From positions 1-38,129 of IMG/VR virus record IMGVR_UViG_3300017708_002371: 38,129 nucleotides of DNA. One strand, written 5' to 3'. The notes under the pieces are model-generated. The model worked only from the letters and a program-made list of their open reading frames with translations. It had not been told where the DNA came from and ran no database searches. Source of the stretch: a virus. Positions 3,610 through 28,466 of the stretch are shown here, piece by piece; position 1 is the first letter of the stretch; each line of letters opens with the position of its first letter. The translations under genes were made by a program, and so were the position numbers.

Positions 3610-6455
3610 TATCCACCTCCACCACTTCCACTACTATATCCACCACTAGATGGTGGTGGTGTGGGTGTTGGTGCAGGAGGTGGTGTAGGTGCTGGTGTTG
3701 GTTGAGGAACCGTAGTAGTAGTCGTTGTTGCAGTTGGTGTAGGTATTGGATCTACAACCACACCTTCTGCAGATTCTTGTTCTTCATCAGCAGGAATTGG
3801 TTGAATAGCATTTCCAACTTTTGGAGTTGGTTTTGCGTATGGATCTCTCAAACTTTCTTCTGGAGTATCATAGATGTAGGAATGATTTATCGGACTATGA
3901 AGTCTTCCAACCATCTTTCTTCCTTTATGTTTATGGTATGGTCCATAATATGGTTGTCCATTCACATAACCAATAACCAATCTACCAATACAATCATCAA
4001 CAGTAATAATTCTGTCACCAGAAAGAGTTTTTGCATTATCATCAGGATTTTCATCAATTCTCTTCTTAAATATTGGTAAGATTATTGCATTAATACCTGT
4101 ATTTGATCTTATGTAGATATCTGGATATGAACTAAACGTAGAACCAGGATCTTGAATTACAACTTCAATAAGTTGACCAATATCATTGAAAACTGGAACT
4201 AATTTTAAACCAGTATCTGATCCTCGTTTTTCTCCACCACCATCAACTACAATTACATCACCCTGCTTATAATTAAATCCAGGATTGTAAATATACACTG
4301 CATCTAGTATAATATCTGCCCTCTCACCACCACTGATAGGTCTATTATCACGTGGTCCTTTTATAAGTCTCCATTTGCCACCATCCCAAATTGATTTATC
4401 TCCTTCTCTAACATCTTCACCAACAAATCCTTCCCAGTTACCAGTACCGTTTGTAACATTAGTATATGGAGAATTGATTTGAGGATCTGTAGGTGCAGTT
4501 CCAGTAAAATCTGCAGGACCTAGTTCATTCTTAAATGTATTTGTAGGAGTTGGAACTGTAAGTGACCCACCATTACACATTAAAATAGGACTTGTTGGTC
4601 CTTGACCACTAATAACTTGAATTACATTCCCATCTGGATCAAATACTTCAACTTCTGTATCTACTGGTAATGTAATACTGGGACAACGATCATATCCTTC
4701 TGCCTTATAAGGTATTTCAATTGCATCATCAGGTTTCTTTACTTCCCATTTACCAGTTTGATCTCTAAGAATTGCTTCTTCTGGTTTACTAATATTTGTA
4801 GAACCATCTGGTTCATCTAGATAACCATTGCCAGGTTGAACTACGAGAGCACCAACAATTTGAATATCATCACCTTGTTTTAGTGATGTATCTGCTGGAC
4901 TATCTGGATTATTCGCATCATTAGTAATAAGTTCAATTTTATAACCACCACCATTTCCGCAAGCATCTGTGATACTAATTGTTGGTGTGTAAGTATACCC
5001 ACTACCAAAACTACTAAAGTCAACACCCATGATCTGACCACCAAAGGTAATTAGATCAGCAGCAAGACCTTGACCACCTCCACCACTGAAAGAAATACTA
5101 GGAGGACCACAAGGTAATTGTGATGTATTACATTCTGGACCGACTTCACCAGGGATTGCTTTGGAAATGTCATCCATAATGCCCGCAATTCCCTCAGACA
5201 CATCTGCTGATAAACTAGATCCGTCCCAGAAACTCCACTGATCTTTATACTCACAGTTTGGAGTAGAATCACATTTTAAGAAATTAAGAAGACCTTGAAT
5301 AATTTCAAGAACAGAGAATGCCTGACTAACTATTCCTGCTCCCTGTCCAACTAAACCAGCAATACCACTTACTGCACTATTAACAGCACCAGTAATCTCA
5401 CCAAGAATATTACCAAGCATATCACCGACCATCTTCTCGGCAGCACACATTGGTGCCATCACATAATTATCAACCAACTGCTCGAACATACCCTTTGCCA
5501 TCTGAAAGAGTGTATCCATAATTTTTTGGAATACACAAGCAAGAGTATCGGTAGTGGTTGATGCACCACCAGAGAATATCTGTCTCAAGTTTGGTGGTAA
5601 CAACTCTCCAACATCTTTAAGACCAGCATTGATTTTGTTGAGGATAAATCCTCTCATCTTACCAACAATCATCTTAAAGAGACTTGCAACTGCACCAGCA
5701 ACTTGATTTGTAATGTTCTGTATGTTTGCTAGGATACTATTTGCAGTCTCAATCGCAGTTGATGCGAATAGTTTTATTCTTTTAATAGTTGCAAGAGCTC
5801 TTTGGATAAATCCTTGAACACCTTTTACTGGTCCAGCACCACCTTCACACTCAATATTTCTTTTTCTAGGTGATCCTTCCTTACCATCTGCCGTTTGTAT
5901 AAGTTCCTTTTTTGTTTTTTGGGAAGAATCTGCACTGAATGATTCAATGATTTGCTTGTCTCCAGCTGCTGGTGCAGTGGGGATGGATGGTTCTTTTATG
6001 GATTTCGGTCCAGTCTTACCATCATAACCAGTTCTACCAACATATCCTTCTTCAGGATCTCCACCAAACAGTGCAGTATTTGGGTCGTTAGGAAGAGCTC
6101 CTAAAATGACTGGTTGTCTACCTTCAACCCCATCCCAGAACCAACCTACAACCCAGGATCCTTGAGCCAGACAAATAGTTTCACTATAACCACCATGACC
6201 AGTACCTGCAGTTACAGGGAGAATGACATCCGCCATATCCAGTTGTTGATCTGGGACAACTTTTACCTCAGAATCTCTACCGAATATTCTTACACGATAT
6301 CTTGTACCATGACCTTTTTTATCTTGGCGATCATGGTTTTCTAGGACTTGATTTCCAATCCAAGTAGACTCGTCAACAATTTGACCAGTCCACCAGTACA
6401 TTTGGTTTTTTGAAAGTCCAGTTGAATTATACTGGTTTGTTAACTGTCTGACCAT
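3606..6455 (-). CDS. 5: gp5-like baseplate hub/spike protein without lysozyme domain
   Basis: A 949-aa protein. Residues about 45-130 form the gp5/VgrG OB-fold: GTRYRVRIFGRD, then QGSWVVGWFWDGVEGRQPVI, ending LGALPND. Residues about 200-400 are helical and Ala/Gly-rich (AVASLFKMIVGKM, ILGEITGAVNSAVSGIAGLV). The rest is beta-rich with repeated G-x-Y-x-x-P-x-I modules (YTYTPTISI, FSSYPDIYI), then a low-complexity Pro/Thr and Gly tail. In T4, gp5 is OB-fold, lysozyme, beta-helix; here no lysozyme motif is visible, and murein hydrolase domains are instead in the two large tail proteins upstream. It should be the central baseplate spike that contacts the gp27-like hub encoded two genes upstream. 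Confidence 0.82.
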   Translation of the reverse strand: MVRQLTNQYNSTGLSKNQMYWWTGQIVDESTWIGNQVLENHDRQDKKGHGTRYRVRIFGRDSEVKVVPDQQLDMADVILPVTAGTGHGGYSETICLAQGSWVVGWFWDGVEGRQPVILGALPNDPNTALFGGDPEEGYVGRTGYDGKTGPKSIKEPSIPTAPAAGDKQIIESFSADSSQKTKKELIQTADGKEGSPRKRNIECEGGAGPVKGVQGFIQRALATIKRIKLFASTAIETANSILANIQNITNQVAGAVASLFKMIVGKMRGFILNKINAGLKDVGELLPPNLRQIFSGGASTTTDTLACVFQKIMDTLFQMAKGMFEQLVDNYVMAPMCAAEKMVGDMLGNILGEITGAVNSAVSGIAGLVGQGAGIVSQAFSVLEIIQGLLNFLKCDSTPNCEYKDQWSFWDGSSLSADVSEGIAGIMDDISKAIPGEVGPECNTSQLPCGPPSISFSGGGGQGLAADLITFGGQIMGVDFSSFGSGYTYTPTISITDACGNGGGYKIELITNDANNPDSPADTSLKQGDDIQIVGALVVQPGNGYLDEPDGSTNISKPEEAILRDQTGKWEVKKPDDAIEIPYKAEGYDRCPSITLPVDTEVEVFDPDGNVIQVISGQGPTSPILMCNGGSLTVPTPTNTFKNELGPADFTGTAPTDPQINSPYTNVTNGTGNWEGFVGEDVREGDKSIWDGGKWRLIKGPRDNRPISGGERADIILDAVYIYNPGFNYKQGDVIVVDGGGEKRGSDTGLKLVPVFNDIGQLIEVVIQDPGSTFSSYPDIYIRSNTGINAIILPIFKKRIDENPDDNAKTLSGDRIITVDDCIGRLVIGYVNGQPYYGPYHKHKGRKMVGRLHSPINHSYIYDTPEESLRDPYAKPTPKVGNAIQPIPADEEQESAEGVVVDPIPTPTATTTTTTVPQPTPAPTPPPAPTPTPPPSSGGYSSGSGGGGY

Positions 6456-6462
6456 GAGTTAC

Positions 6463-6690
6463 TCAGTCCTCATATACTAGGCATTCTGGTTCTGATGGGT
6501 TAGCATCACAATACAGTTCTAGTGGTGATGGATCATGATGATCACCTGCTTCAATTTCTTTCTTGTGATGCTCTGCATAATCTTCCAACTCGTGCAACTC
6601 ACCTTCAATATGACGACGTTGTTGTGGTGAGATGGTAGGATTCTCAAGAATCTTTTTATCTGTTTCGATGTGCGTTTCTATGTTTTCCAT
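6463..6690 (-). CDS. small conserved cyanophage protein
   Basis: A 75-aa acidic, helical protein; function unknown. An in-frame TTG lies 18 nt upstream, but the ATG at 6690 (MENIETHIETDKK) is the better start and follows the gp27 stop. The middle is a likely coiled coil (QQRRHIEGELHELEDYAEHHKKEIE), and the C-terminus is conserved-looking with two cysteines (LYCDANPSEPEC). Its position between the hub genes gp27 and gp5 in every sense of the operon suggests a baseplate assembly or chaperone role, which is inference. Confidence 0.65.
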   Translation of the reverse strand: MENIETHIETDKKILENPTISPQQRRHIEGELHELEDYAEHHKKEIEAGDHHDPSPLELYCDANPSEPECLVYED

Positions 6691-6697
6691 GTTTAAA

Positions 6698-7993
6698 TTA
6701 TTCGACAATAGAGTCTCTGATAATATTTAGCTTGGTGTAGCAACCTTCTGCAGCAATTAAATGTGCAACGTCTGCTACTAAGTATTTTCCAGATTTTTTC
6801 TTAGATATATCTTTTCTTTTTTGATTGGCAGAAATTTCTGGAAAGTCACAATATACTACATCACCAGGGAAAATGCCAAAATCACCATCTATCTTAAGAT
6901 TTACATGAAATAAATTAGACTGATAGTATCTTTTTGCTGCAATCTGAGGTATTTCGTCATGGTTGAATGATGGTTCTTGTGCTGCATTAAGTTGTTTATC
7001 AAGAGTTGGTCCTGTTGGTTGAACACCAGTGTCTCTAAATTTGTGAGAAATATTCCCAGTAACTTTATCGGGTAATCCTAAATGTGTACCAACTTGTGGT
7101 TTATCAGCACTTAAATTATTATCTCCTTGATACGAATCATCACTCGCATGTGAGGTTTGTGTGTATAAATGTGAATATGGATCTATTGTTCTTGTTTTAG
7201 TATTTTGCAATGCACCAAGATGTAAAGTATCAATTATGTTTGTGTTGTTTGAAAATTCAACACTCAAAATTTTATTACTATATCCAGGAGGAAGTTTGGT
7301 AGTTTCTGTTAACAACATTCTTCTCTTTGGTTCCTGACTAAACATGACATCAATAGATCTAAAGTTTAATCCATTGTAAGTATCAAATAAAAAGTAACCA
7401 GCAGATTTAGGAAACTTTTCTGGTTGTGCTTTGTTGCATAGTGTAGTAACAAAATCTAAAGGTCTTTCAGTACAACACTTAACTGGTAATTCAGTTACAG
7501 TTGGATCAATGGCAATTGGTCTCTGAGTAATTTTAGAAAGAACTTGATTTACAGTATCACTTATCTTCTGGTCGAACCTAGAAACAACATAGTTTTCTTC
7601 TAACTCATTTAATATAAAATCATCCATACACAAATCAATTCTGTGCATTTCTTTCATGGTATTTGTTGCCGATGATATCACTTCAGCAATAGTAAACTCA
7701 GATGCTCCAGTGAATACTAATTCAACTTGATTTTCATCTACAACAGTTAGATCAACTTTTTCTCCCGTGATAAGATTTATTTCTCCAGATTGATCGGCAG
7801 ATATTGTACCATCTTTTCCATCTATTCTTATTCCACTATCAAACATTTCAAAAGTAGCACGGACGGAATGATCAAAAATACTTTGAAAGATTAAAATATG
7901 TGAAAATGCACCTTCCCCCAACAAACTAAGATCACTACCGTAGTTTGATGTAATCGTAAATTTCTTTACGTTATGTACTAAGGGTTTTGTCAT
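6698..7993 (-). CDS. 27: gp27-like baseplate hub subunit
   Basis: A 431-aa protein beginning MTKPLVHNVKKFTITSNYG. The order of segments matches T4 gp27: an N-terminal tube-like beta domain (LSLLGEGAFSHILIFQSIFD), a central helical part, an internal beta domain with GYFLFDTYNGLNFRSID, and a C-terminal barrel with GDFGIFPGDVVYCDFPEI and SGKYLVADVAHL, which is typical of gp27/gpD hub proteins. T4 gp27 is 391 aa. In the virion it would form the trimeric ring joining the gp5 spike to the tail tube. Neighbours (gp5 downstream, tape-measure-like protein directly upstream with adjacent stop/start) agree. Confidence 0.78.
   Translation of the reverse strand: MTKPLVHNVKKFTITSNYGSDLSLLGEGAFSHILIFQSIFDHSVRATFEMFDSGIRIDGKDGTISADQSGEINLITGEKVDLTVVDENQVELVFTGASEFTIAEVISSATNTMKEMHRIDLCMDDFILNELEENYVVSRFDQKISDTVNQVLSKITQRPIAIDPTVTELPVKCCTERPLDFVTTLCNKAQPEKFPKSAGYFLFDTYNGLNFRSIDVMFSQEPKRRMLLTETTKLPPGYSNKILSVEFSNNTNIIDTLHLGALQNTKTRTIDPYSHLYTQTSHASDDSYQGDNNLSADKPQVGTHLGLPDKVTGNISHKFRDTGVQPTGPTLDKQLNAAQEPSFNHDEIPQIAAKRYYQSNLFHVNLKIDGDFGIFPGDVVYCDFPEISANQKRKDISKKKSGKYLVADVAHLIAAEGCYTKLNIIRDSIVE
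6724..6730 (-). promoter_or_regulatory. putative late promoter motif CTAAATA
   Basis: CTAAATA on the minus strand inside the last codons of gp27, 33 nt before the start of the 75-aa gene. It could start a gp5-proximal late transcript. Support is the motif and spacing only. Confidence 0.35.
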
Positions 7994-10900
7994 TTATGTA
8001 TAGTATTTGCTACCTGAGGTGCTTACTTTTTGACTGTTATTTGTATTACTATCAATTATATATGGTTGATTTATAAGAACTATCTTAGTACCATCTTCTT
8101 CATAATCAGCATGACTTCTTAATTTATCATCACTATTTAGATTGACTGGAGTAATATTACTGGGACTTACAGAATTTGAACTTGGTTTATTGAAAAATTG
8201 TGATTGTTGGCCAGCAGAAGTTGCTGCATGTTCTCTTGCACCCGCAAATATATCAGTGAATCCACTGGTTCCTTGTAGTGATGAGAAGTTTGCTTGCTGA
8301 CTATCCTCATTTTGAGTAGTTTCTTTTTCTTTCTTTGAGGGAATTATAGGTGGTCCTTTAGTAATTGTTGGAGTTTTAACTGGTTTTGCATCAACTCCAT
8401 ACTTACTAGAAAGTAATGCACTCACCTTTTCTGCATCAAATTTAGGTTTTTCTCCAGCTGGTGCCAGTGACTCTGGACCATCAGCATCACTGATCCCTCT
8501 TATAGAATCAGTTTCGGAAGTTTTATTTGCTAATTCTGCTTTGAAGTTTCTAAAATGTTTTTTAACCATATCACGAATAATTGGACCACCACTTCCAGGT
8601 TTTCCACCTTGCTTGATCATCCATAAATCCCATCTTGCACCAAGACCTCCCCATGCCGTAGGACCATAATTATCAGGTTGTCCATCTCCATCCGAATCAG
8701 CATGACCTGCCAATCCTCTTGGATCATAACCAGAACCTGCCTCAGCATGAGTCCAAATATTTTTATCAATATCACCTTCACCCCATCCCCATTTAATTGC
8801 AAGTCTTGCCGCTTCAGCAGACATTTGATTTAACTGTTCATGTGTAACTGGTTTGCTGCCAAAATTATTCGGTGTGGCACCAGCCATTGCAGCAAGTGAT
8901 AGTCCTACAGAATTACCATTCTTACCTTCAGTGTGCTTTCCTGTCACATCATAATCTTTATTTCTATAAACACTACCATCACCTCCAAATATTGTATGGT
9001 ATCCATAACTTTTACTTGCATCATTATAATTTCCAGCAGTCCAATGTAAGTAAATTTGAGTATCCTTACCTCTTGTTTTTCCTGGAGTAAAGTTTGGATC
9101 ACCAAATTTAACTGGAGTAATTGTTCCAGTTCCAGATGGAAGGCTACGTCTACCACTACCTTGACTTACTGTCGGTCCACTTCCTCCAGGACTTTGAGAT
9201 TCATCACCTTCAGAATCGTTGGTTCCTCGTTTATCAGTGGCAATAGATTTACTATAAACTGAACCTTCATTATTTGGATCCGATTCGGAGAAGAATGCTG
9301 TTCTTAAAACATTAAACTTTTTAACTAGATTATACTCTAAAGGATTTAATAAAGTAGCCCAACCACCAAGTTTTATCTTACCAAGATTTAAGAAGGGAAC
9401 CCATGATAAATCAATTTGTGGTCCATCTTGTTTTTGGATATTACTAATACCCTTCATCATCCATTCAGAAAATAATTTAGCACCATTTACAACTTTTAAA
9501 ATATCATTTTTCAGTCTCTTTCCAACCGCAGATGCACCTCCACCATTCAATAGTTCATACATCAGATCACCGACATATTCACCAGCAAGTGTTCCAATGA
9601 TTGTTCCTAAGAATGGAATTGGGATAAATGAACCAAGGAATCCACCAAGTGCAGAACCACCTACCTTAAACAATGCTCTATCAAGTTTACCATCTTCCAT
9701 ATAGGAAGCAATACCAATCATAAGTGGACCAATAATTGGTATTCTACCTAGAGGTCCAGAACTAACTTTGGCAAATTTACTTGCAAGTCTTGCTCCTGAT
9801 CTATTCAAACCAAGTCTTGCACCACGACCCATAATTCTGGTCTGAAGACGACTTCCAGATTTTGCAAGTCCTCTTCTAAAAACACCACCCGCTCTTCCAG
9901 ATGCTGGTCTTCCTCCAGCACCTGTTCCAAGACCAGGACCTGATGGTTTAGGAACAAACTTTTTGTTCCTAATCATCTTATCCACATTTGCTTTTGCTCT
10001 CCTTGCTGCTTGAGTTGGAGTCTTACCAGATTTTATAGCATCATCATATGCATTCTGATATGCTCTAGCAGCATCATTACCATACTTTCTTTCAAATAAT
10101 TTTGCCTGCCGACCACGATTCATATATTCCGAAGTCTTACTTGCTCCTGATGCTGGTTTTCCACCAGGTGATAGTTTAGTTTGAGGTTGTACTCCAGGTT
10201 TTGCTCCAGGAGTCATACCATTAAGAGGAACTCCAGACATTGCCAAGATCATTGCAATGTTGATAAACTTGTTGAATTTTCCTAAGAACTTAGTATATTC
10301 TTTTTCAGCATCCTCACCACCAACACCTTCAATTTCTCTTCCTATTGCATCTGTAACATCATAGGCACCATCAACTACAGATATAATTCCATTTAGAATT
10401 TTTCCTCCTAGATTTACAATAAATTCTGTTGCAGCAGCAAGATTTTTTACAATATTAAATACTGTCTCCCTATTCTCAAATAAAAATATTAATATTTTAC
10501 CAGCAATGACACTGAATATAAAGTTTTGGATGGCATCAATAATTCCACCTTTAGGAAGAATTTTTGAAAGTGCTGCTCCACCAAGTCCAGCACCAATTTT
10601 AGATTTATTTTCTAGTTTTGTCTCTTTAGACTGTCTTTGTTCCTTTTCAAATAATTTTTTCTTAGTAGTTACATCTTTTTTCTCTTCTTTTATTGACTTA
10701 CCAAGTAAATTTCTAATGTCAAGAACTTCCTTGTCGATACGTTCAAGTGTTCCTGGACCAGACTTTGGTGATCCAGATACTTGAGTTTTGTTATTTCTTG
10801 CTGGAATAGATGTTGAAGGTATAAGTGCAGTCTTTGGGTTTATTGTAATCGCATTACTTTTTCCTTGTTCTTGCCCTTGAGTCTGACGTTTAACAATTTG

Positions 10901-20992: not shown

Positions 20993-21722
20993 TGTGGAAA
21001 GGGCATTTTTTTCTGGCATCTTTATCAAATAAAATTGTATTCATAAACTTACGATCACTAACAAGTATGTCTCTTCGATTATCAAATGAATCTAAAAATT
21101 CTTCTGATGCTTTTTTCTTTTCGAGTGTGAATTTATCGTTCATATTTTCACTATAAAATCTAATCCTAAAAAGAGGATCTCCTTTTTCAATATAAAGATC
21201 TTCACAACCATCCTGCAACTTAATTGCAAGAGATATAATTCTAGGATGACTTCCCAGATTCCACCATCCACCAATAGCAATAAAGTTATTGTTTAGTGCA
21301 GTCTCTGGATGATCTAACATCTCAAACCAAACATATTCATTATCAAAGTCTGTCCAGAAATGAGAATTAGGAAACTTTAACTGAAGTACAGGTTGATCTT
21401 GATCTTGAATATCACTAAGAACACAATAGATATTATCATCGATGAAATCATCTTCTTCATTACCTAAAGAATCTAATCCAGCATTGAAATCTTCCATATC
21501 GATTTCAACAACATCCTCATCATCAAGTTTATATTGAAGTATATTCTCATCCAAACCCATTCTAAATGTACATGGTGAATATCCAACGAATGTCCTATTA
21601 TGTCTATGTTTCCAAACAGGACATTCACTATAAGTATAGTTACTGTGTACTGATGAATTTTCTAAGTTAATAGTTGCTTCTTCAAAAAAGTTTTCTGGAC
21701 AATAATATACTTTATAACTCAT
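20985..21722 (-). CDS. unknown conserved protein between PhoH and exonuclease
   Basis: A 245-aa acidic protein, not recognised. It has several conserved-looking aromatic and glycine positions (NRTFVGYSPCTFRMG, FWTDFDNEYVWFEML, IAIGGWWNLGSHPRI) followed by beta segments (GDPLFRIRFYSEN) and a helical C-terminus ending KKCPFHNV. The pattern suggests a compact beta fold, possibly of an uncharacterised domain family in cyanophages. It overlaps PhoH by ATGA and the exonuclease gene by a few bases, so it is co-expressed with them. Confidence 0.7.
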   Translation of the reverse strand: MSYKVYYCPENFFEEATINLENSSVHSNYTYSECPVWKHRHNRTFVGYSPCTFRMGLDENILQYKLDDEDVVEIDMEDFNAGLDSLGNEEDDFIDDNIYCVLSDIQDQDQPVLQLKFPNSHFWTDFDNEYVWFEMLDHPETALNNNFIAIGGWWNLGSHPRIISLAIKLQDGCEDLYIEKGDPLFRIRFYSENMNDKFTLEKKKASEEFLDSFDNRRDILVSDRKFMNTILFDKDARKKCPFHNV

Positions 21723-22480
21723 AGAATACCTAATTCATTCTTAGCAATGATGTATTCTCTACACAGACCAGATCTTACAATATCATCAGCATCAAACTCA
21801 ACGATATCTACTGAAGGCATTTGCTCTAGGATTTTCATAAAGTCAACAATACCATTCTTCTCGTTAGTCTTTACCAAATCACTTTGACTTGCATCACCGC
21901 AGAACATAATCTTACAGTTGTCACCAACTCGTGTAATAATACTATCGAGTTCATGATAGTTCAAGTTTTGAAATTCGTCAATGACAAGAATAGAATTGTC
22001 AAATGTAGTACCACGAATGAATGATGTACTCCAAAAACTAACTGTTCCCTGAATCTTTAGATTGCCATAGAGCATTTCAAACTCAGCATCAGAAGGCATT
22101 TGGAACATGTACTTAACCATATTCTTATACGGAATCTGATAAAGATTAGATTTGTCATCATGATCTCCTGGAAGAAAACCAATCTCTCTAGTTGCCACAA
22201 GAGATCTAATCACATACACCTTTTCGTATGGTGTAAATTGATCTAAAGCTTCTTTGATTGCATGATATAAGGTAATGAATGTTTTACCTGTACCAGCAGT
22301 TCCATAGGCAACAATGTGCTTCCCTTCCTTATAAGATTCAAACAACTTCTTCTGATTTTCAGTGAGTGGTTCGATATTTAAAAGGTGATCTGTATTGATT
22401 GGCTTCTTACCTTTAAGTGCTTGACGATGATACTCCGAATTAATACCAACGTTATTGTTGTTTCTTTTTCTTCTAGCCAT
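21719..22480 (-). CDS. phoH: PhoH-like P-loop ATPase
   Basis: A 253-aa protein. Walker A is G60-TAGTGKT-67; Walker B is ILVIDEFQN; YVIRSLVATREIGFLPGD and MFCGDASQSDL are the characteristic PhoH motifs. PhoH-like proteins are near universal in marine T4-like phages. Despite the name, a role in phosphate stress is not proven for phage; ATP-dependent RNA or nucleic acid work is likely. It is complete and stands first in the PhoH-unknown-exonuclease set. Confidence 0.92.
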   Translation of the reverse strand: MARRKRNNNNVGINSEYHRQALKGKKPINTDHLLNIEPLTENQKKLFESYKEGKHIVAYGTAGTGKTFITLYHAIKEALDQFTPYEKVYVIRSLVATREIGFLPGDHDDKSNLYQIPYKNMVKYMFQMPSDAEFEMLYGNLKIQGTVSFWSTSFIRGTTFDNSILVIDEFQNLNYHELDSIITRVGDNCKIMFCGDASQSDLVKTNEKNGIVDFMKILEQMPSVDIVEFDADDIVRSGLCREYIIAKNELGIL

Positions 22481-22481
22481 A

Positions 22482-22733
22482 TCAGATCTTTAGATTTTGT
22501 GCTCCAGGTTGTTGTGATGCTTTATCAAGGATTTCATTCCAACCTGGTTTTGATTTAACAAGTTTGTCTTTCCACTCACCAATTGGTTCTAGTCCCAATC
22601 CAGGTGAATTTTCTGGAGTAAAAAATCGTTCCCAATTTGGATTATCAATTTTCCATTGGTCCCATTCATGAATACTCATTTTCACTTCTTTGGTTTCACC
22701 AGTTTGTTTATTCTTAACAGGGTATGTTGCCAT
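22482..22733 (-). CDS. small conserved cyanophage protein upstream of phoH
   Basis: An 83-aa protein with start ATG at 22733 (MATYPVKNKQTGETKEV); an upstream GTG is in frame but less likely. The N-terminus resembles FmdB-type small domains (xTYxVKxKxTGE) but has no zinc cysteines. It is rich in Trp (EWDQWKIDNPNWERFF) and ends with a helix GWNEILDKASQQ. Function unknown. CTAAATA lies 21 nt before the start. Confidence 0.7.
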   Translation of the reverse strand: MATYPVKNKQTGETKEVKMSIHEWDQWKIDNPNWERFFTPENSPGLGLEPIGEWKDKLVKSKPGWNEILDKASQQPGAQNLKI

Positions 22734-22753
22734 AATTATCACTGAGTGTAGTT

Positions 22754-22760
22754 TATTTAG
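22754..22760 (-). promoter_or_regulatory. putative late promoter motif CTAAATA
   Basis: Minus-strand CTAAATA overlapping the end of the dehydratase gene, 21 nt upstream of the 83-aa gene ATG. The spacing is like the other late-type motifs in this window. Confidence 0.5.
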
Positions 22761-23773
22761 ATCTTAATCCAACGTTCATTTGCAAGTGTCCATTGAACAA
22801 CCTCCTTAACACGATCACGGATATCTTTTGGTTGCCATCCCATTGCCTTCATCTTTTCACCAGATAATGCATAACGTAAGTCATGACCAGGACGTGCAGA
22901 GTGGAAGTCAACCATCTCATACTTAAGTTCTTTGCCCTGAGCATCAGCAATCATCTGTGCAAGTTGAAGATTGTTGAGTTCTTCTGCACCAACGATGTTG
23001 AACTTGGGACACCTTGCACCACCCCAAGTGTAAGACTCTACGTTCTTACCAAGAAGAAACAAAAGTGCATCTGCGACATCTTCAGCATGAATGTAATGCC
23101 GTGACCCAGGAATTTCCTTAGTTGGATCACTGTGAATCGTGATTGTCTCACCATCACGGGCACGTTTAATGCACATGGGAATGAACTTTTCTGGGTGTTG
23201 ACGTTGCCCAAAGACATTCATTGTGTGAGTAATGTATACGGGTACTCCGTAAGTGTTGTGGAAAGCAACTGCTAGTTCCTCACCACCTGCCTTAGTTGCA
23301 CTGTATGGGTTTGTAGAATTATAACGATCGTTCTCTTCATACAGAATACCATCTGGTGCAGGACCAAAGACTTCATCAGTACCAAAGTAAACAAATCTTT
23401 CTAGATGATCTAGACTACGGGCATAGTCAAGGATGTTGCAGGTTGCTACAACGTTATCCATGACAAATTCCATAGGATATTCGATGCTGCGGTCAACATG
23501 AGAACCAGCAGCAAGGTGAAGAATGTAGTCAATCTTACCAATGTCTGCAGCAATCAGTGGATTCACTGCTGCTTTTAGATCATGGAATACAATCCTCACC
23601 CGAGAACGATCCTCAGCAGAAAAATCTTTTAAAACGTCTTGAAGACGGTTAAGATTTCCACTAAAGTCCAGACGATCTAGCGTAACTACTTCCCAGTCTG
23701 TATTTCTCAGAATCTGTGAAATTAAATGGTGTGCAATAAAACCTGCACCACCAGTAATTAACGCTCTTTTCAT
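22757..23773 (-). CDS. NAD-dependent sugar-nucleotide 4,6-dehydratase (RfbB-like)
   Basis: A 338-aa extended short-chain dehydrogenase. The N-terminal Rossmann motif is GGAGFIAHHL (8-17). SHVDRSIEYP and the T132-D133-E134 triad in FGTDEVFG, with Y157/K161 in PYSATKA, are the hallmarks of dTDP-glucose 4,6-dehydratase. The C-terminal substrate region (NVFGQRQHPEKFIPMCIKRA, GSRHYIHAEDVADALLF) also fits. The product would be a 4-keto-6-deoxy sugar nucleotide; glucose as substrate is inference. ATG at 23773 is preferred to an upstream TTG. A sigma70-like promoter (23796-23824) precedes it, yet it follows the carbamoyltransferase genes directly, suggesting a shared glycan or nucleotide modification role. 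Confidence 0.85.
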   Translation of the reverse strand: MKRALITGGAGFIAHHLISQILRNTDWEVVTLDRLDFSGNLNRLQDVLKDFSAEDRSRVRIVFHDLKAAVNPLIAADIGKIDYILHLAAGSHVDRSIEYPMEFVMDNVVATCNILDYARSLDHLERFVYFGTDEVFGPAPDGILYEENDRYNSTNPYSATKAGGEELAVAFHNTYGVPVYITHTMNVFGQRQHPEKFIPMCIKRARDGETITIHSDPTKEIPGSRHYIHAEDVADALLFLLGKNVESYTWGGARCPKFNIVGAEELNNLQLAQMIADAQGKELKYEMVDFHSARPGHDLRYALSGEKMKAMGWQPKDIRDRVKEVVQWTLANERWIKI

Positions 23774-23792
23774 GTCTTTTCTCAAATACTTT

Positions 23793-25016
23793 TCAATTAT
23801 AACCTATATTGTTCTGTCTTGCAACCTCCAATTCAATCTGCTTTTTTAAAATACTATTTGGTAGTTGCTTTGATCCATGGTAAATATTTTTAAATGGATA
23901 CTTCTCCGTTGATTTTGTTTCATTATAGTAAAATAATTTTGCTGCTCCAAGAGACTGACAAGCATCACCTGCAATAGGATCAATAAAGAAGTTAATGTCA
24001 GGGAATTTTTCTTGGATGACTGAGTTTGCACAAATGTTCAATGCACAACCCCCAGAGAATACAATGTTCTTTGTGTCTGGTCTTAAATCAAGAACTTGCT
24101 GAACTCTCATGACTAAAACTTTCTCCATACAATCTTGTATTTCCCATGCAAGATCTGCTTTCTTTTGGAAATCGTCATGATGTCTAAGTTGAGGGAAGTT
24201 TGTTGTGTTGAATAGTCTATTACTATAAAACACATTCATGTTTGCCATTCCATTATCAAGAATGAATGATGGTAAGTCATCATTATGTTCACCATATGCA
24301 GCAAGACCCATCGTCTTTCCACACTCATCCCTAATCCATCCAAGGTGATATGTAACAGTTCCATACATCACACCAATGTCGTAACATGAATTGACATCAA
24401 TGATATCATTATCTGTCAACATCTCAAAGAAATTGTTTGGGAAATTGACTTGAATGAATCCTCTTGGTGATGGTGCAGGAACAATCAGATTTTTATAGAG
24501 TAATTTAAAATCGTTTGGATACTCTGCATAATACAATGAAGTACTCTCCAGGAACATGATGTCACTCCACTTCTCAGCATTTTCTTTGTCTTGATCAGAG
24601 AGTTCAATCTCTGCCAATTCCATAAGAGCATTAATTCTATAATCAGCACCCCAACCATCAATCACAATGACAGCAGCTTCATCAAATCCAGATGCATAAA
24701 AACCAGAAGCAGCATGGTAAAGATGATGTTCATCAACTTCAATGGTTGTTGTAATTTTATCCAGTTTGAATTTCCTTAAGATCTCTTCAATATCTCCAAT
24801 ATCTTTATCATCACCATTAGTAATTACAAACTCATCTATACCATATTGCTCATGAAACTTTAGAACAGGATCAAAAACACAAAGAAGTGAATTGTCATGC
24901 TTCTTACCAGAGAGTCTTTCTTCTAGAATAATTTCATGAACTTCTCCATTACGGAGCATGGTGACACCTGCTTCATGTCCACTAATTGAAAAACATACTA
25001 CATTATATTTTTTCAT
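23793..25016 (-). CDS. carbamoyltransferase N-terminal (Kae1-like) domain protein, pair B
   Basis: A 407-aa protein matching the N-terminal domain of NodU/TobZ/CmcH O-carbamoyltransferases. The ASKHA ATPase fold has FSISGHEAGVTML near the start, the iron motif H97-xxx-H101 in DEHHLYHAA, D120 in VIVIDGWG, GKTMGLAAYG, and IVFSGGCALNICANS. The domain transfers the carbamoyl group to a hydroxyl acceptor. The C-terminal YrdC-like domain is missing here and is encoded by the gene immediately upstream (25013-25570), overlapping by ATGA. So the enzyme is split and in reversed gene order relative to fused homologs. It is followed by the RfbB-like gene after 19 nt. Confidence 0.85.
   Translation of the reverse strand: MKKYNVVCFSISGHEAGVTMLRNGEVHEIILEERLSGKKHDNSLLCVFDPVLKFHEQYGIDEFVITNGDDKDIGDIEEILRKFKLDKITTTIEVDEHHLYHAASGFYASGFDEAAVIVIDGWGADYRINALMELAEIELSDQDKENAEKWSDIMFLESTSLYYAEYPNDFKLLYKNLIVPAPSPRGFIQVNFPNNFFEMLTDNDIIDVNSCYDIGVMYGTVTYHLGWIRDECGKTMGLAAYGEHNDDLPSFILDNGMANMNVFYSNRLFNTTNFPQLRHHDDFQKKADLAWEIQDCMEKVLVMRVQQVLDLRPDTKNIVFSGGCALNICANSVIQEKFPDINFFIDPIAGDACQSLGAAKLFYYNETKSTEKYPFKNIYHGSKQLPNSILKKQIELEVARQNNIGYN
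23796..23824 (-). promoter_or_regulatory. sigma70-like promoter of the dehydratase gene
   Basis: Minus strand: -35 TTGCAA (23819-23824), 17-bp spacer, -10 TATAAT (23796-23801). It lies inside the last codons of the carbamoyltransferase gene, 23 nt before the dehydratase ATG. Confidence 0.55.
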
Positions 25017-25570
25017 TTGACTACCAACATACCAGTATCAGGAAAATAAACATAATATAGATCTGATTTATTCAGAGATGCAATTGCTTGCTTTACAGTT
25101 TCAACTATCGGATCCCCAGCAAGATTAAATGATGTATTCAATAAGATTGGAACCTGTGTATTGATATAGAAAGTTTTAATTAGATTGTAGTAGTGAAGAT
25201 TTTCTTGTTCATTAACTGTCTGTATCCTACAAGTTCCATCTACATGAGTAATAGCAGGGATATATTCCTGCATAGTTTCTCTTACTCTAAGATTGAATGT
25301 CATATAAGGAGAACTCTTCATCCCAATCATATCAAACCATTTATCTGCATGTTCCTCCAATACAGAACCAGCAAATGGTCTAAAACTTTCTCGGTTTTTT
25401 ACAGTATTAACAATATCTTTTCCGTTAGAAATTCTAGGATCAAAAATAATAGACCTATTGCCCAATGCCCTAGGTCCGACTTCTGATCTTCCTTGATGTA
25501 TTGCTCCTATCTTTTTATCTAAGATTAATTCAACAACATCATCATATGTAACATCATATCTAATCTTCAT
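25013..25570 (-). CDS. carbamoyltransferase C-terminal (YrdC-like) domain protein, pair B
   Basis: A 185-aa protein equal to the C-terminal domain of NodU/TobZ enzymes: AIHQGRSEVGPRALGNRSII (signature GPRALGNRS), FRPFAGSVLEEHADKWF, SPYMTFNLRV, PAITHVDGTCRIQTV and LLNTSFNLAGDPIVET. In TobZ this domain makes carbamoyl-adenylate from carbamoyl phosphate and ATP, which is passed to the Kae1-like domain. Here it is a free-standing gene, with ATGA overlaps to both neighbours. It is roughly 45% identical by eye to its counterpart at 26809-27378. Confidence 0.85.
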   Translation of the reverse strand: MKIRYDVTYDDVVELILDKKIGAIHQGRSEVGPRALGNRSIIFDPRISNGKDIVNTVKNRESFRPFAGSVLEEHADKWFDMIGMKSSPYMTFNLRVRETMQEYIPAITHVDGTCRIQTVNEQENLHYYNLIKTFYINTQVPILLNTSFNLAGDPIVETVKQAIASLNKSDLYYVYFPDTGMLVVK

Positions 25571-26805
25571 ACACTGGGTCCAAAATAAACATGATCAAAT
25601 GGAAACTTTTCTTTACTCTTTGTCAATCCATACCATAAGTATTTTGCCGCACCAATTGCAGTTCCACCATCATGAGCAATAGGGTCAACAAAAAATTCTA
25701 CTTCTGGGAATTCCTTTGTATATTTATAGTTGTTAACGCAATTTAAAAAGTAACCACCAGACAACACAATCTTATTCTTACCAGTCATATCAATTGTTTT
25801 TTGTATCATTCTACAAGTATGTTTATATGTTTCTTCTTGTAGTTTATGTGCAAGAGATGCACACAAATAAGTATCTAAATCTGGCAATTCAATTTCAGAT
25901 TTGATATCATTATCATCCATAAAGTTTTCCATTGCCGATTGGATATTATCAATCGTTACCCAAACACCTTCATGCTCATAGAACCAATCACATACAAAAA
26001 TGAATTTATCTTTCTCATAGTTGTTTAGAATATGATAGTTCTGTTTGTATGAATCGGATGCAAGTCTATGTCCAGATAGACCCATCAATTTACCTGCTGC
26101 ATTTCCACTGTCCTCAAGTCCAAATACACCACACATTATATTGAATAGATCTCCACAACTTTTTGTTCTGGAGTAGATTTCATTCTTATTTCTTTTCCAA
26201 AATAATTCTCTTTCAGTATCAGGATCTTCATCATCCTCATCATCGTCTAACATAGAACAATGCTTAAACTTTGTAGAGAAAAGATTATCATAAGAACAAT
26301 CGAAGATACTTTCAATTTCTCTAAAAGGATATTCTGAATGTTTGGATGTTTCATTCTCTCTATATTCTACATCATAAGCACCACCACCATCTAGAACGAG
26401 TGCAGCTGCATCATCAAATCCAGATGCAAAGAATGCATTCGCAGCATGATATATGTGATGATTATTAGCATATATCATAGAGGTATTAAAAGAAATACCG
26501 TCTTTCTGAAGTGCTCTAATGATATTTGTCCTAAGAAAGTCATCGTCTCCAATTTCATCTCTACCATAAGAGGTAAAAATAATATAATCAATCCATGATG
26601 TATATTTTTTAATCACATCTGAATGACAATAAGTCTCAGGGAATTCACCACTTTCTTCATACTCGTCAAGCATTTCTGATACATCGTAACAACTCTCTAT
26701 CTTTTCACCGCACAGTCGTTCATCTTCAGCAAAATATACAATCTCACCATCCTTTAAAAGGCAGGTAGATCGGTCATGAGAGATATTGATTCCTAGAATA
26801 TACAT
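25567..26805 (-). CDS. carbamoyltransferase N-terminal (Kae1-like) domain protein, pair A
   Basis: A 412-aa paralog of the 407-aa protein. Motifs: GINISHDRSTCLL at the start, H116-xxx-H120 in ANNHHIYHAANAFFASGFDD, D139 in LVLDGGG, KLMGLSGH, and IVLSGGYFLNCVNN, ending DPIAHDGGTAIGAAKYLWYG. It differs from pair B by an acidic insertion around residues 190-200 (DDDEDDEDPD) and by GGG instead of GWG after D139, so acceptor specificity may differ. It begins 3 nt after its partner C-domain gene and overlaps the pair B C-domain gene by ATGA. Confidence 0.85.
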   Translation of the reverse strand: MYILGINISHDRSTCLLKDGEIVYFAEDERLCGEKIESCYDVSEMLDEYEESGEFPETYCHSDVIKKYTSWIDYIIFTSYGRDEIGDDDFLRTNIIRALQKDGISFNTSMIYANNHHIYHAANAFFASGFDDAAALVLDGGGAYDVEYRENETSKHSEYPFREIESIFDCSYDNLFSTKFKHCSMLDDDEDDEDPDTERELFWKRNKNEIYSRTKSCGDLFNIMCGVFGLEDSGNAAGKLMGLSGHRLASDSYKQNYHILNNYEKDKFIFVCDWFYEHEGVWVTIDNIQSAMENFMDDNDIKSEIELPDLDTYLCASLAHKLQEETYKHTCRMIQKTIDMTGKNKIVLSGGYFLNCVNNYKYTKEFPEVEFFVDPIAHDGGTAIGAAKYLWYGLTKSKEKFPFDHVYFGPSV

Positions 26806-26808
26806 TTA

Positions 26809-27378
26809 TTATACCTCGTTCTTTGCGTAAATTAGAGTTTCTTTTTCTGGAAGATAAAGATATTCAAATGATGATCTCTCTAGTGTAGATAATGCCTGCT
26901 TCATAGTATGAACAATTGGTTCTCCAGCAAGATTAAAAGATGTGTTTCCAACTATAGGAATTCCAGTTAGATTCTTATATGCTTTGATCAAATTATAGTA
27001 GTGAGGATTGTTCTTTTCACTTACAGTTTGAACTCTGCAAGTTTTATTTTTATGAATGATTGCTGGAATTTTCTTCAATTTATCTGGTCTTACATCAATA
27101 GCATAAGTCATGAATGGAGATTCTTCTATGGTTCCGTTATCAAACCACTCGGAAAAATCTTCCAACAAAATAGATCCAGCAACAGGTCTATACCACTCTC
27201 TCCTCTTTAGGATATTGACATGCTGCCACATCTCGTAAATACGTGGATTGAATAGGAATGATCTATTTCCTAGAGCACGTGGTCCTCCCTCATCAGAACC
27301 CTGATAAATGGCAACAACATGACCATCATCAATAAATTTAGCAATGGTAGAATATTTTACCTTTGGGATTACTTTCAT
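26809..27378 (-). CDS. carbamoyltransferase C-terminal (YrdC-like) domain protein, pair A
   Basis: A 189-aa protein, first of the four-gene carbamoyltransferase operon. It contains AIYQGSDEGGPRALGNRSFL, YRPVAGSILLEDFSEWF, PAIIHKNKTCRVQTVSE and VGNTSFNLAGEPIVHT, all hallmarks of the carbamoyl-adenylate-forming C-domain. Its partner N-domain gene follows after 3 nt. It is preceded by an ATAAATA late motif 21 nt upstream, at the ThyX stop, so the whole locus may be expressed late. Confidence 0.85.
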   Translation of the reverse strand: MKVIPKVKYSTIAKFIDDGHVVAIYQGSDEGGPRALGNRSFLFNPRIYEMWQHVNILKRREWYRPVAGSILLEDFSEWFDNGTIEESPFMTYAIDVRPDKLKKIPAIIHKNKTCRVQTVSEKNNPHYYNLIKAYKNLTGIPIVGNTSFNLAGEPIVHTMKQALSTLERSSFEYLYLPEKETLIYAKNEV

Positions 27379-27398: not shown

Positions 27399-28046
27399 TT
27401 ATTTATTATGCTCAGTCCACCCAAGTGCTTCAGCAATCACTGGAAACTGTCCAGCAAAGACACACTTACACTCATTGGCAATATCCATATGTTCTTTCTG
27501 TGTTCCATGAGCAGAACGCAGATCGATATAATGTATCCATGACCGCACTGAACCGCTCATGTAAATTTTTGTGGGAACTGCTAAAGGAAGCACAAAGCGA
27601 GCACACTCCTTTGCCACACCATGATCAAGCATGGTTTGATATAGATCCATAGCAGAAGCAAAATGCCTCTCGATAGCAATCTCAAACTCTTGCTTATGGA
27701 AAGCATCCAAATCATCAGTAGAGTTTTGACGATTCTTTGTATCTTGACGACGCAAGTCTGGAAGAGGAATCTTAGTTGCTAACATAGAACTATCAGCATA
27801 CCGTTGAGAAAACTCTTGGAATGTAAAAGATCTATGACGAAGGATCTGAGCTGCCAATCCTCTCGTGGTCTCAATCTCAAGAGTCATGAATGCCATCTCA
27901 AAAATACTCCAATGCTGATGATTGATGCAGTATTTAAGGAGACCAGCAATCTTTTCATTCTCCTGATTATTTGGATTACTTACACGGGCACAATATGCAA
28001 TATTCTTCTCAGCATCAGGTGTGACAGAGATCAGTTTAACGTTCAT
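27399..28046 (-). CDS. thyX: flavin-dependent thymidylate synthase
   Basis: A 215-aa ThyX (start MNVKLISVTPDAEKN; the longer ORF start would overlap the upstream gene far more). It has the ThyX motif RHR-x7-S (R70 H71 R72 ... S80 Q R82: RHRSFTFQEFSQR), plus HWSIFEMAFMTLEIETTRGL and the C-terminal SGSVRSWIHYIDLR. It converts dUMP to dTMP using methylene-tetrahydrofolate, FADH2 and NADPH. Common in cyanophages to sustain DNA synthesis. It overlaps the upstream small gene by 11 nt. Confidence 0.93.
   Translation of the reverse strand: MNVKLISVTPDAEKNIAYCARVSNPNNQENEKIAGLLKYCINHQHWSIFEMAFMTLEIETTRGLAAQILRHRSFTFQEFSQRYADSSMLATKIPLPDLRRQDTKNRQNSTDDLDAFHKQEFEIAIERHFASAMDLYQTMLDHGVAKECARFVLPLAVPTKIYMSGSVRSWIHYIDLRSAHGTQKEHMDIANECKCVFAGQFPVIAEALGWTEHNK
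27400..27406 (-). promoter_or_regulatory. late promoter motif ATAAATA before the carbamoyltransferase operon
   Basis: Minus-strand AATAAATA overlapping the ThyX stop codon, 21 nt before the first carbamoyltransferase ATG. This is the T4-type late element. Confidence 0.6.
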
Positions 28047-28215
28047 CTTTTTTAAATTGCTTACGACATTTCTTAACATCTTTGAGTTCTTCTTTAATCA
28101 TCTGATATGCATCTTCAGGTGACAACTTCTTTGCCATTTCCATAGCAGTGATGATCTCAACTCTTGTTCCGAAGTGCTTGAGTGCCTCTTCAAAACAGTT
28201 TAATTCTTCATACAT
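28036..28215 (-). CDS. small conserved cyanophage protein upstream of thyX
   Basis: A 59-aa protein from ATG at 28215 (MYEELNCFEEALKHFGTR); an in-frame GTG further up lies inside the previous gene. Helical, with the repeat-like ITAMEMAKKLSPEDAYQMI and a basic tail KKCRKQFKKDER. Function unknown. It is 2 nt downstream of the previous gene and overlaps thyX by 11 nt. Confidence 0.65.
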   Translation of the reverse strand: MYEELNCFEEALKHFGTRVEIITAMEMAKKLSPEDAYQMIKEELKDVKKCRKQFKKDER

Positions 28216-28427: not shown

Positions 28428-28457
28428 ATTATACTCATAAAAAAAGGACCTGTCAAG
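28428..28457 (-). promoter_or_regulatory. early promoter with -35 inside a terminator hairpin
   Basis: Minus strand: -35 TTGACA (28452-28457), 18-bp spacer, -10 TATAAT (28428-28433). The -35 consists of the loop and first 3'-stem bases of the terminator at 28439-28466, and the T-run is the spacer. Confidence 0.75.
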
Positions 28458-28466
28458 CAGGTCCTG
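28439..28466 (-). terminator. rho-independent terminator after the DUF4278-like gene
   Basis: Minus strand AGGACCTG, loop CTTGA, CAGGTCCT (perfect 8 bp) followed by a T-run of seven or more. It starts 20 nt after the stop at 28486. Confidence 0.88.

Follow-up and report, generated by a model that had tools for sequence, protein, structure and literature searches.

Split carbamoyltransferase genes in reversed domain order in a T4-like cyanophage and its relatives

In the known O-carbamoyltransferases, labile carbamoyl-AMP moves along a channel within a single polypeptide chain. What kind of enzyme is encoded when the two domains appear as separate genes, with the gene for the usual C-terminal domain transcribed first? 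This question is raised by IMG/VR virus record IMGVR_UViG_3300017708_002371, the 38,129-nucleotide stretch of DNA analyzed here (the window), in which four consecutive genes, designated C1, N1, C2, and N2 in order of transcription, encode alternating YrdC-like C-domain and Kae1-like N-domain proteins (Table 1). The window comes from a T4-like cyanophage; its genes include psbA, transaldolase, purM, and purC together with T4-like tail and replication genes. Judged from sequence, the split, order-reversed genes are a real and selectively maintained variant of a known enzyme family, and they probably specify a pair of CmcH/NodU/TobZ-class O-carbamoyltransferases, C1-N1 and C2-N2, each of two subunits made in trans.

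The initial annotation had described the domains as separate genes, and this is borne out by four intact open reading frames, each matching one Pfam family. In the profile search that it had proposed, the matches of C1 and C2 to Carbam_trans_C (PF16861) and of N1 and N2 to Carbam_trans_N (PF02543) all exceed the curated cut-offs. No second domain above cut-off was detected with Pfam on any of the four proteins, and Kae1- or YrdC-type matches were sub-threshold only; the TsaD/Kae1 family TIGR00329 matched N2 only, with 17.4 bits against a cut-off of 207.8. The GPRALGNRS signature of the C domain is present, as is the HxxxH signature attributed to the N domain, which here takes the form HHxxH, and the sequence agrees with the description of the junctions as ATGA overlaps or a 3-nucleotide gap.

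The split is not a sequencing error, because the same four genes are carried by the isolated phage S-SCSM1, with 83% nucleotide identity to the window, and by the 153.8-kb IMG/VR contig 3300017721_001026, which differs from the window by 1 mismatch in 13 kb. Sequencing error, assembly artefact, and chance are ruled out by the S-SCSM1 array together with approximately 30 contigs. In the survey of gene order in other cyanophages, arrays between thyX and rbpA-phoH were identified on 31 IMG/VR contigs, and in no case is a fused carbamoyltransferase gene present at that site. The gap between thyX and rbpA is an insertion site, since in S-T4 these two genes are 20 nucleotides apart with nothing between them. 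The placement of the C-domain gene ahead of the N-domain gene also held: it does not depend on how the genes of the array are grouped, because S-RIM44 and Sf-CH3 possess a single C-then-N pair at the same thyX/rbpA-phoH site, and whole-genome searches of their complete genomes found a single C match and a single N match per genome, so that these phages rely on a single C-N pair. Two IMG/VR contigs (L136 and L137) likewise encode a single C-N pair.

Purifying selection acts on all four genes, as indicated by dN/dS values between the window and S-SCSM1 of 0.137 for C1, 0.179 for N1, 0.144 for C2, and 0.202 for N2, with 0.10 for thyX. The two pairs have diverged, with 48% identity between C1 and C2 and 35% between N1 and N2, and they have kept their key residues, as had been noted from the window itself. 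When conservation was scored over 97 N and 86 C representatives, the near-invariant N columns were HHxxH, the second and third acidic ligands, and GKxMG, the supernumerary N proteins included, and the near-invariant C columns were GPRALGNRS, KxRE, HxxxTCRxQT, and NTSFN. In C1 the conserved positions are GPRALGNRS at 32, K58, H109, and NTSFN at 145; by alignment, K58 and S147 of both C1 and C2 are the equivalents of TobZ K443 and S530. The Fe ligands of GdmN are H133, H137, D156, and D333 (PMC9633730). The aligned Fe ligands are equivalent in N1 (H116, H120, D139, and D379, with H10 as the base) and in N2 (H97, H101, D120, and D351, with H14 as the base), and the second histidine is separated from the first aspartate by 19 residues in each of the three proteins. 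Decay of a fused enzyme can begin with its splitting, but it is very improbable that the genes are decaying fragments without function, given dN/dS of 0.14-0.20 for all four, intact frames in about 30 contigs, and near-invariant catalytic residues.

The folds of both domains were recovered in a model of C1-GG-N1, a single-chain proxy for the pair in which both TAA codons were read as glycine; rows from phage records were left out of the underlying alignment (predicted local distance difference test score 90, predicted template modeling score (pTM) 0.74). N1 of this model matches TobZ and GdmN with a Z score of approximately 28 and 2.8 Å over approximately 310 residues, and C1 matches TobZ and VtdB with 1.5-1.8 Å over 188 columns. 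A fused phage relative superposes on the whole of TobZ with a template modeling score of 0.80 (pTM 0.91).

N1 and N2 belong to deep lineages that are not sisters, so the array did not come from duplication of one pair. In the N tree, N2 forms a clade of its own (100/99) and N1 forms another with the N proteins of the single-pair phages (98/82). A recent tandem duplication of one pair was rejected: a forced N1+N2 clade gave a probability in the approximately unbiased test (p-AU) of 9e-5. Placing N2 with the single-pair N proteins was also rejected (p-AU 1e-4). C1 (96/87) and C2 (99/92) form separate clades in the C tree, where the p-AU values of the alternatives range from 0.09 to 0.55, the 182 columns holding too little signal for choosing partners. 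C1-N1 is thus presumably a continuation of the single-pair type, and a different lineage is represented by N2, presumably together with C2.

We infer complex formation, the reaction itself, the choice of partners, and the acceptor as follows. In this family a YrdC-like unit makes carbamoyl-AMP and a Kae1-like unit transfers the carbamoyl group, the labile intermediate being channelled over approximately 20 Å (PMC6022934); because carbamoyl-AMP is labile and channelled, a split enzyme should form a complex. Each C protein would convert carbamoyl phosphate and ATP to carbamoyl-AMP, and the Kae1-like N protein would dock on it in a TobZ-like arrangement and receive the labile intermediate via a shared channel. 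The N protein, with its Fe site and histidine base, would then carbamoylate a hydroxyl, the likeliest being that of a nucleotide sugar or surface glycan. C1-N1 would be the older unit at the site, and C2-N2 a separate lineage added alongside, its N protein perhaps having a different acceptor specificity. A sugar hydroxyl is the most likely acceptor because fused cyanophage copies of the enzyme lie in sugar- or lipopolysaccharide-type clusters with heptose, epimerase, and kinase genes, and because an RmlB-like gene adjoins the array. The RmlB-like enzyme is a possible source of the sugar acceptor; its gene is absent from the single-pair phages.

Several observations weigh against this scheme. 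The two domains of the C1-GG-N1 model fold well, but their mutual placement is unlike that of TobZ or HypF, with a root-mean-square deviation of approximately 25 Å for HypF over both domains. The artificial covalent order may forbid the natural arrangement, and the proxy is a poor test of subunit docking, which is proposed to be TobZ-like. The C tree gives no confirmation that C1 belongs with N1, and the case for a sugar acceptor is one of gene neighborhood.

The pairing is also where the initial annotation, which had grouped the genes as C1-N1 and C2-N2, fares less well: the reversed order stands, but N1 and C2 abut in N-to-C order and the C tree does not decide between partners. The split points fall in the linker of the fused enzyme, N2 having a linker-like tail and N1 the linker's first residues (VYFGPSV), and C1 and C2 begin at the domain itself; the N1-C2 junction therefore also resembles a fused gene broken in place. 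It could be argued that N1-C2 is the natural unit, that C1 and N2, on either side of it, are the halves of another fused gene, and that what is left here is a former head-to-tail series of fused genes, with partners that may be exchangeable. This would fit with the ATGA overlap of N1 and C2 in the usual N-to-C order, with the tail of N2 being followed by no C domain, and with the weak grouping (95/60) of C2 with the C proteins of phages that have an N-then-C split, near whose N proteins N1 also sits. We nevertheless consider it unlikely, since the single-pair phages carry an N1-type N with a C gene in front and no locus has an intact fused gene at this site; when the single-pair C proteins were constrained to group with C1, the tree was a little better than the free one, and when they were constrained to group with C2 it was 11 log-likelihood units worse, although not rejected. 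The proposed origin of the array from head-to-tail fused genes cut at their linkers may hold if these were different genes; the two pairs are not products of duplication within the array, N1 and N2 being non-sister. Joining of C1 and N1 by stop codon read-through into a HypF-like C-N chain is rejected on the junction sequences and has next to no likelihood: the two genes share a frame in the window, in S-SCSM1, and in a small number of other sequences, but the window has two consecutive TAA codons, relatives such as L012, L074, and L130 do not keep the frame relation, and the genes overlap at the remaining junctions.

A different acceptor is suggested by a fused metagenomic phage carbamoyltransferase that makes 5-carbamoyloxymethylcytosine and is associated with thymidylate-synthase-family genes (PMC8670742). 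With this phage-type precedent and with thyX adjoining the array, the array enzymes might be supposed to make the same modified base in phage DNA. However, the published association is with PF00303 (ThyA/dCMP hydroxymethylase), whereas thyX belongs to PF02511. PF00303 was found in none of the four sequences searched, namely the complete S-SCSM1, S-RIM44, and Sf-CH3 genomes and the 153.8-kb near-identical contig, and thyX occupies the same place in S-T4 with nothing inserted. Because of the missing PF00303 and of thyX in the uninserted S-T4 locus, we regard a DNA base as an improbable acceptor, and a sugar hydroxyl is preferred.

The architecture of the cyanophage arrays varies, with C-N, C-N-C-N, C-N-C-N-N, C-N-N-C-N, and C-N-N-C-N-N arrangements, and in several of them, for example C-N-N-C-N-N, N genes outnumber C genes. 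Such arrays make two acceptors or hetero-complexes, as suggested in the initial annotation, more plausible. It can tentatively be suggested, because there are arrays with two C and three to four N genes and because S-SSM7-like phages have a fused enzyme together with a lone N, that the system might be a modular kit in which C subunits serve several interchangeable acceptor-specific N proteins, and the acceptor range would then grow by N duplication alone. Phages in which a fused carbamoyltransferase gene is followed by one or two lone N genes with intact residues (L174, positions 5986-7095; L178, positions 7476-8633; L039, L040, and L049) are a natural example in which one C domain might be shared.

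Beyond this insertion site, most other phage loci (approximately 50) encode a fused N-C protein, and a separate group of pelagic phages has an N-then-C split, with 10-25 nucleotides between the domain matches and a single C clade (99/95). S-SCSM1 itself has an additional fused carbamoyltransferase gene (NC_070962.1, positions 105322-106872), which adjoins a mannose-6-phosphate isomerase gene and lies near a wcaG RNA. Among the 80 best loci from cellular genomes and metagenome-assembled genomes (MAGs), the fused N-C gene is found in most (approximately 70), an N-then-C split in one, and a C-then-N split in three (L189, L191, and L240), so the reversed order is not confined to cyanophages. In L240, from a Lachnospiraceae MAG, the C-then-N split (positions 3896-5538) is found near a gene with a radical-SAM-looking N terminus, and the neighborhood is possibly a bacterial natural-product cluster. 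L189, from a MAG filed as Rhodospirillaceae, is a 16.6-kb cyanophage-like contig with thyX, a C-N pair, and phoH-like genes, an apparent case of binning contamination.

The array proteins share with TobZ, GdmN, VtdB, and NovN (class III, CmcH/NodU family) both domains, their folds, the Fe ligands, and the carbamoyl-adenylate residues. Those enzymes are one chain with the Kae1-like domain first; because the phage proteins are encoded by separate genes with the YrdC-like domain first, they are split relatives rather than canonical members of the CmcH/NodU/TobZ class. The fused Nol-like carbamoyltransferases of P-SSM2, S-SSM7, and S-CAM1 (phrog_1601, one PHROG covering both halves) are near homologues, but they are N-C chains encoded at other genomic sites. 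There is no essential difference from the stand-alone C-domain family phrog_20469 or from the genes of S-SCSM1, S-RIM44, and Sf-CH3, which are the same split proteins. HypF also has a YrdC-like unit ahead of a Kae1-like unit (PMC6022934) but is one chain with additional acylphosphatase and Zn-finger domains and carbamoylates cysteine, whereas C1 and C2 consist of Carbam_trans_C alone. TsaC (YrdC) and TsaD (Kae1) of t6A synthesis place adenylate-forming YrdC and Kae1 units on separate proteins, as in the array, but they belong to other sequence families and have a t6A substrate.

The genes of S-SCSM1, S-RIM44, and Sf-CH3 are already annotated singly as "Nol-like carbamoyltransferase," a gene-by-gene annotation that the split reading corrects. 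In the freely accessible literature searched, we found no account of the split, the order, or the copy-number pattern, no paper naming both Pfam families together, and none that combines split carbamoyltransferase genes with phages and cyanobacteria; the word carbamoyl does not occur in the S-SCSM1 paper's main text. Two isolated phages have a natural two-protein version as their sole carbamoyltransferase, which makes channelling between subunits directly testable, and partner specificity and the swapping of N proteins for a change of acceptor become testable as well. The phage genes also join TobZ, HypF, and TsaC/TsaD as an example of how YrdC and Kae1 units have repeatedly been fused, separated, and reordered.

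Table 1. Features of the carbamoyltransferase array and its borders in the window
Feature	Position	Strand	Description
C1	26809-27378	minus	189 aa stand-alone YrdC-like subunit, predicted carbamoyl-adenylate-forming; Carbam_trans_C PF16861, E 3e-55
N1	25567-26805	minus	412 aa stand-alone Kae1-like subunit, predicted carbamoyl-transfer; Carbam_trans_N PF02543, E 2e-15
C2	25013-25570	minus	185 aa second YrdC-like subunit; PF16861, E 1e-58
N2	23793-25016	minus	407 aa second Kae1-like subunit; PF02543, E 7e-25
C1-N1 junction	26803-26811	minus	TAA TAA ATG; 3-nt gap; two in-frame stops ahead of N1 start
N1-C2 junction	25567-25570	minus	ATGA overlap
C2-N2 junction	25013-25016	minus	ATGA overlap
RmlB-like NAD-dependent sugar-nucleotide dehydratase/epimerase	22757-23785	minus	Next gene, same direction; TIGR01181, E 3e-70, below cut-off
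thyX	27399-28079	minus	PF02511; conserved left border of insertion site
rbpA-like transcriptional regulator	22482-22742	minus	Right border; phrog_385 and phrog_170 matches cover rbpA/phoH borders, plus synteny
phoH	21719-22480		Directly after rbpA-like gene

The open reading frames of the window place the array on the minus strand in the order thyX, C1-N1-C2-N2, RmlB-like gene, rbpA, phoH. An Rfam search identified no RNA element at the array, and the region has about as many promoter and terminator sites as expected by chance. A perfect sigma-70-type hexamer pair (TTGACA, 17, TATAAT) is present on the minus strand at 28428-28465, approximately 350 bases upstream of thyX, where it overlaps an 8-pair hairpin with a T run. 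The usual ThyX motif is RHRxxSxxxxSxRY; the ThyX signature of the window reads RHRSFTFQEFSQRY, presumably with the first Ser replaced by Thr.

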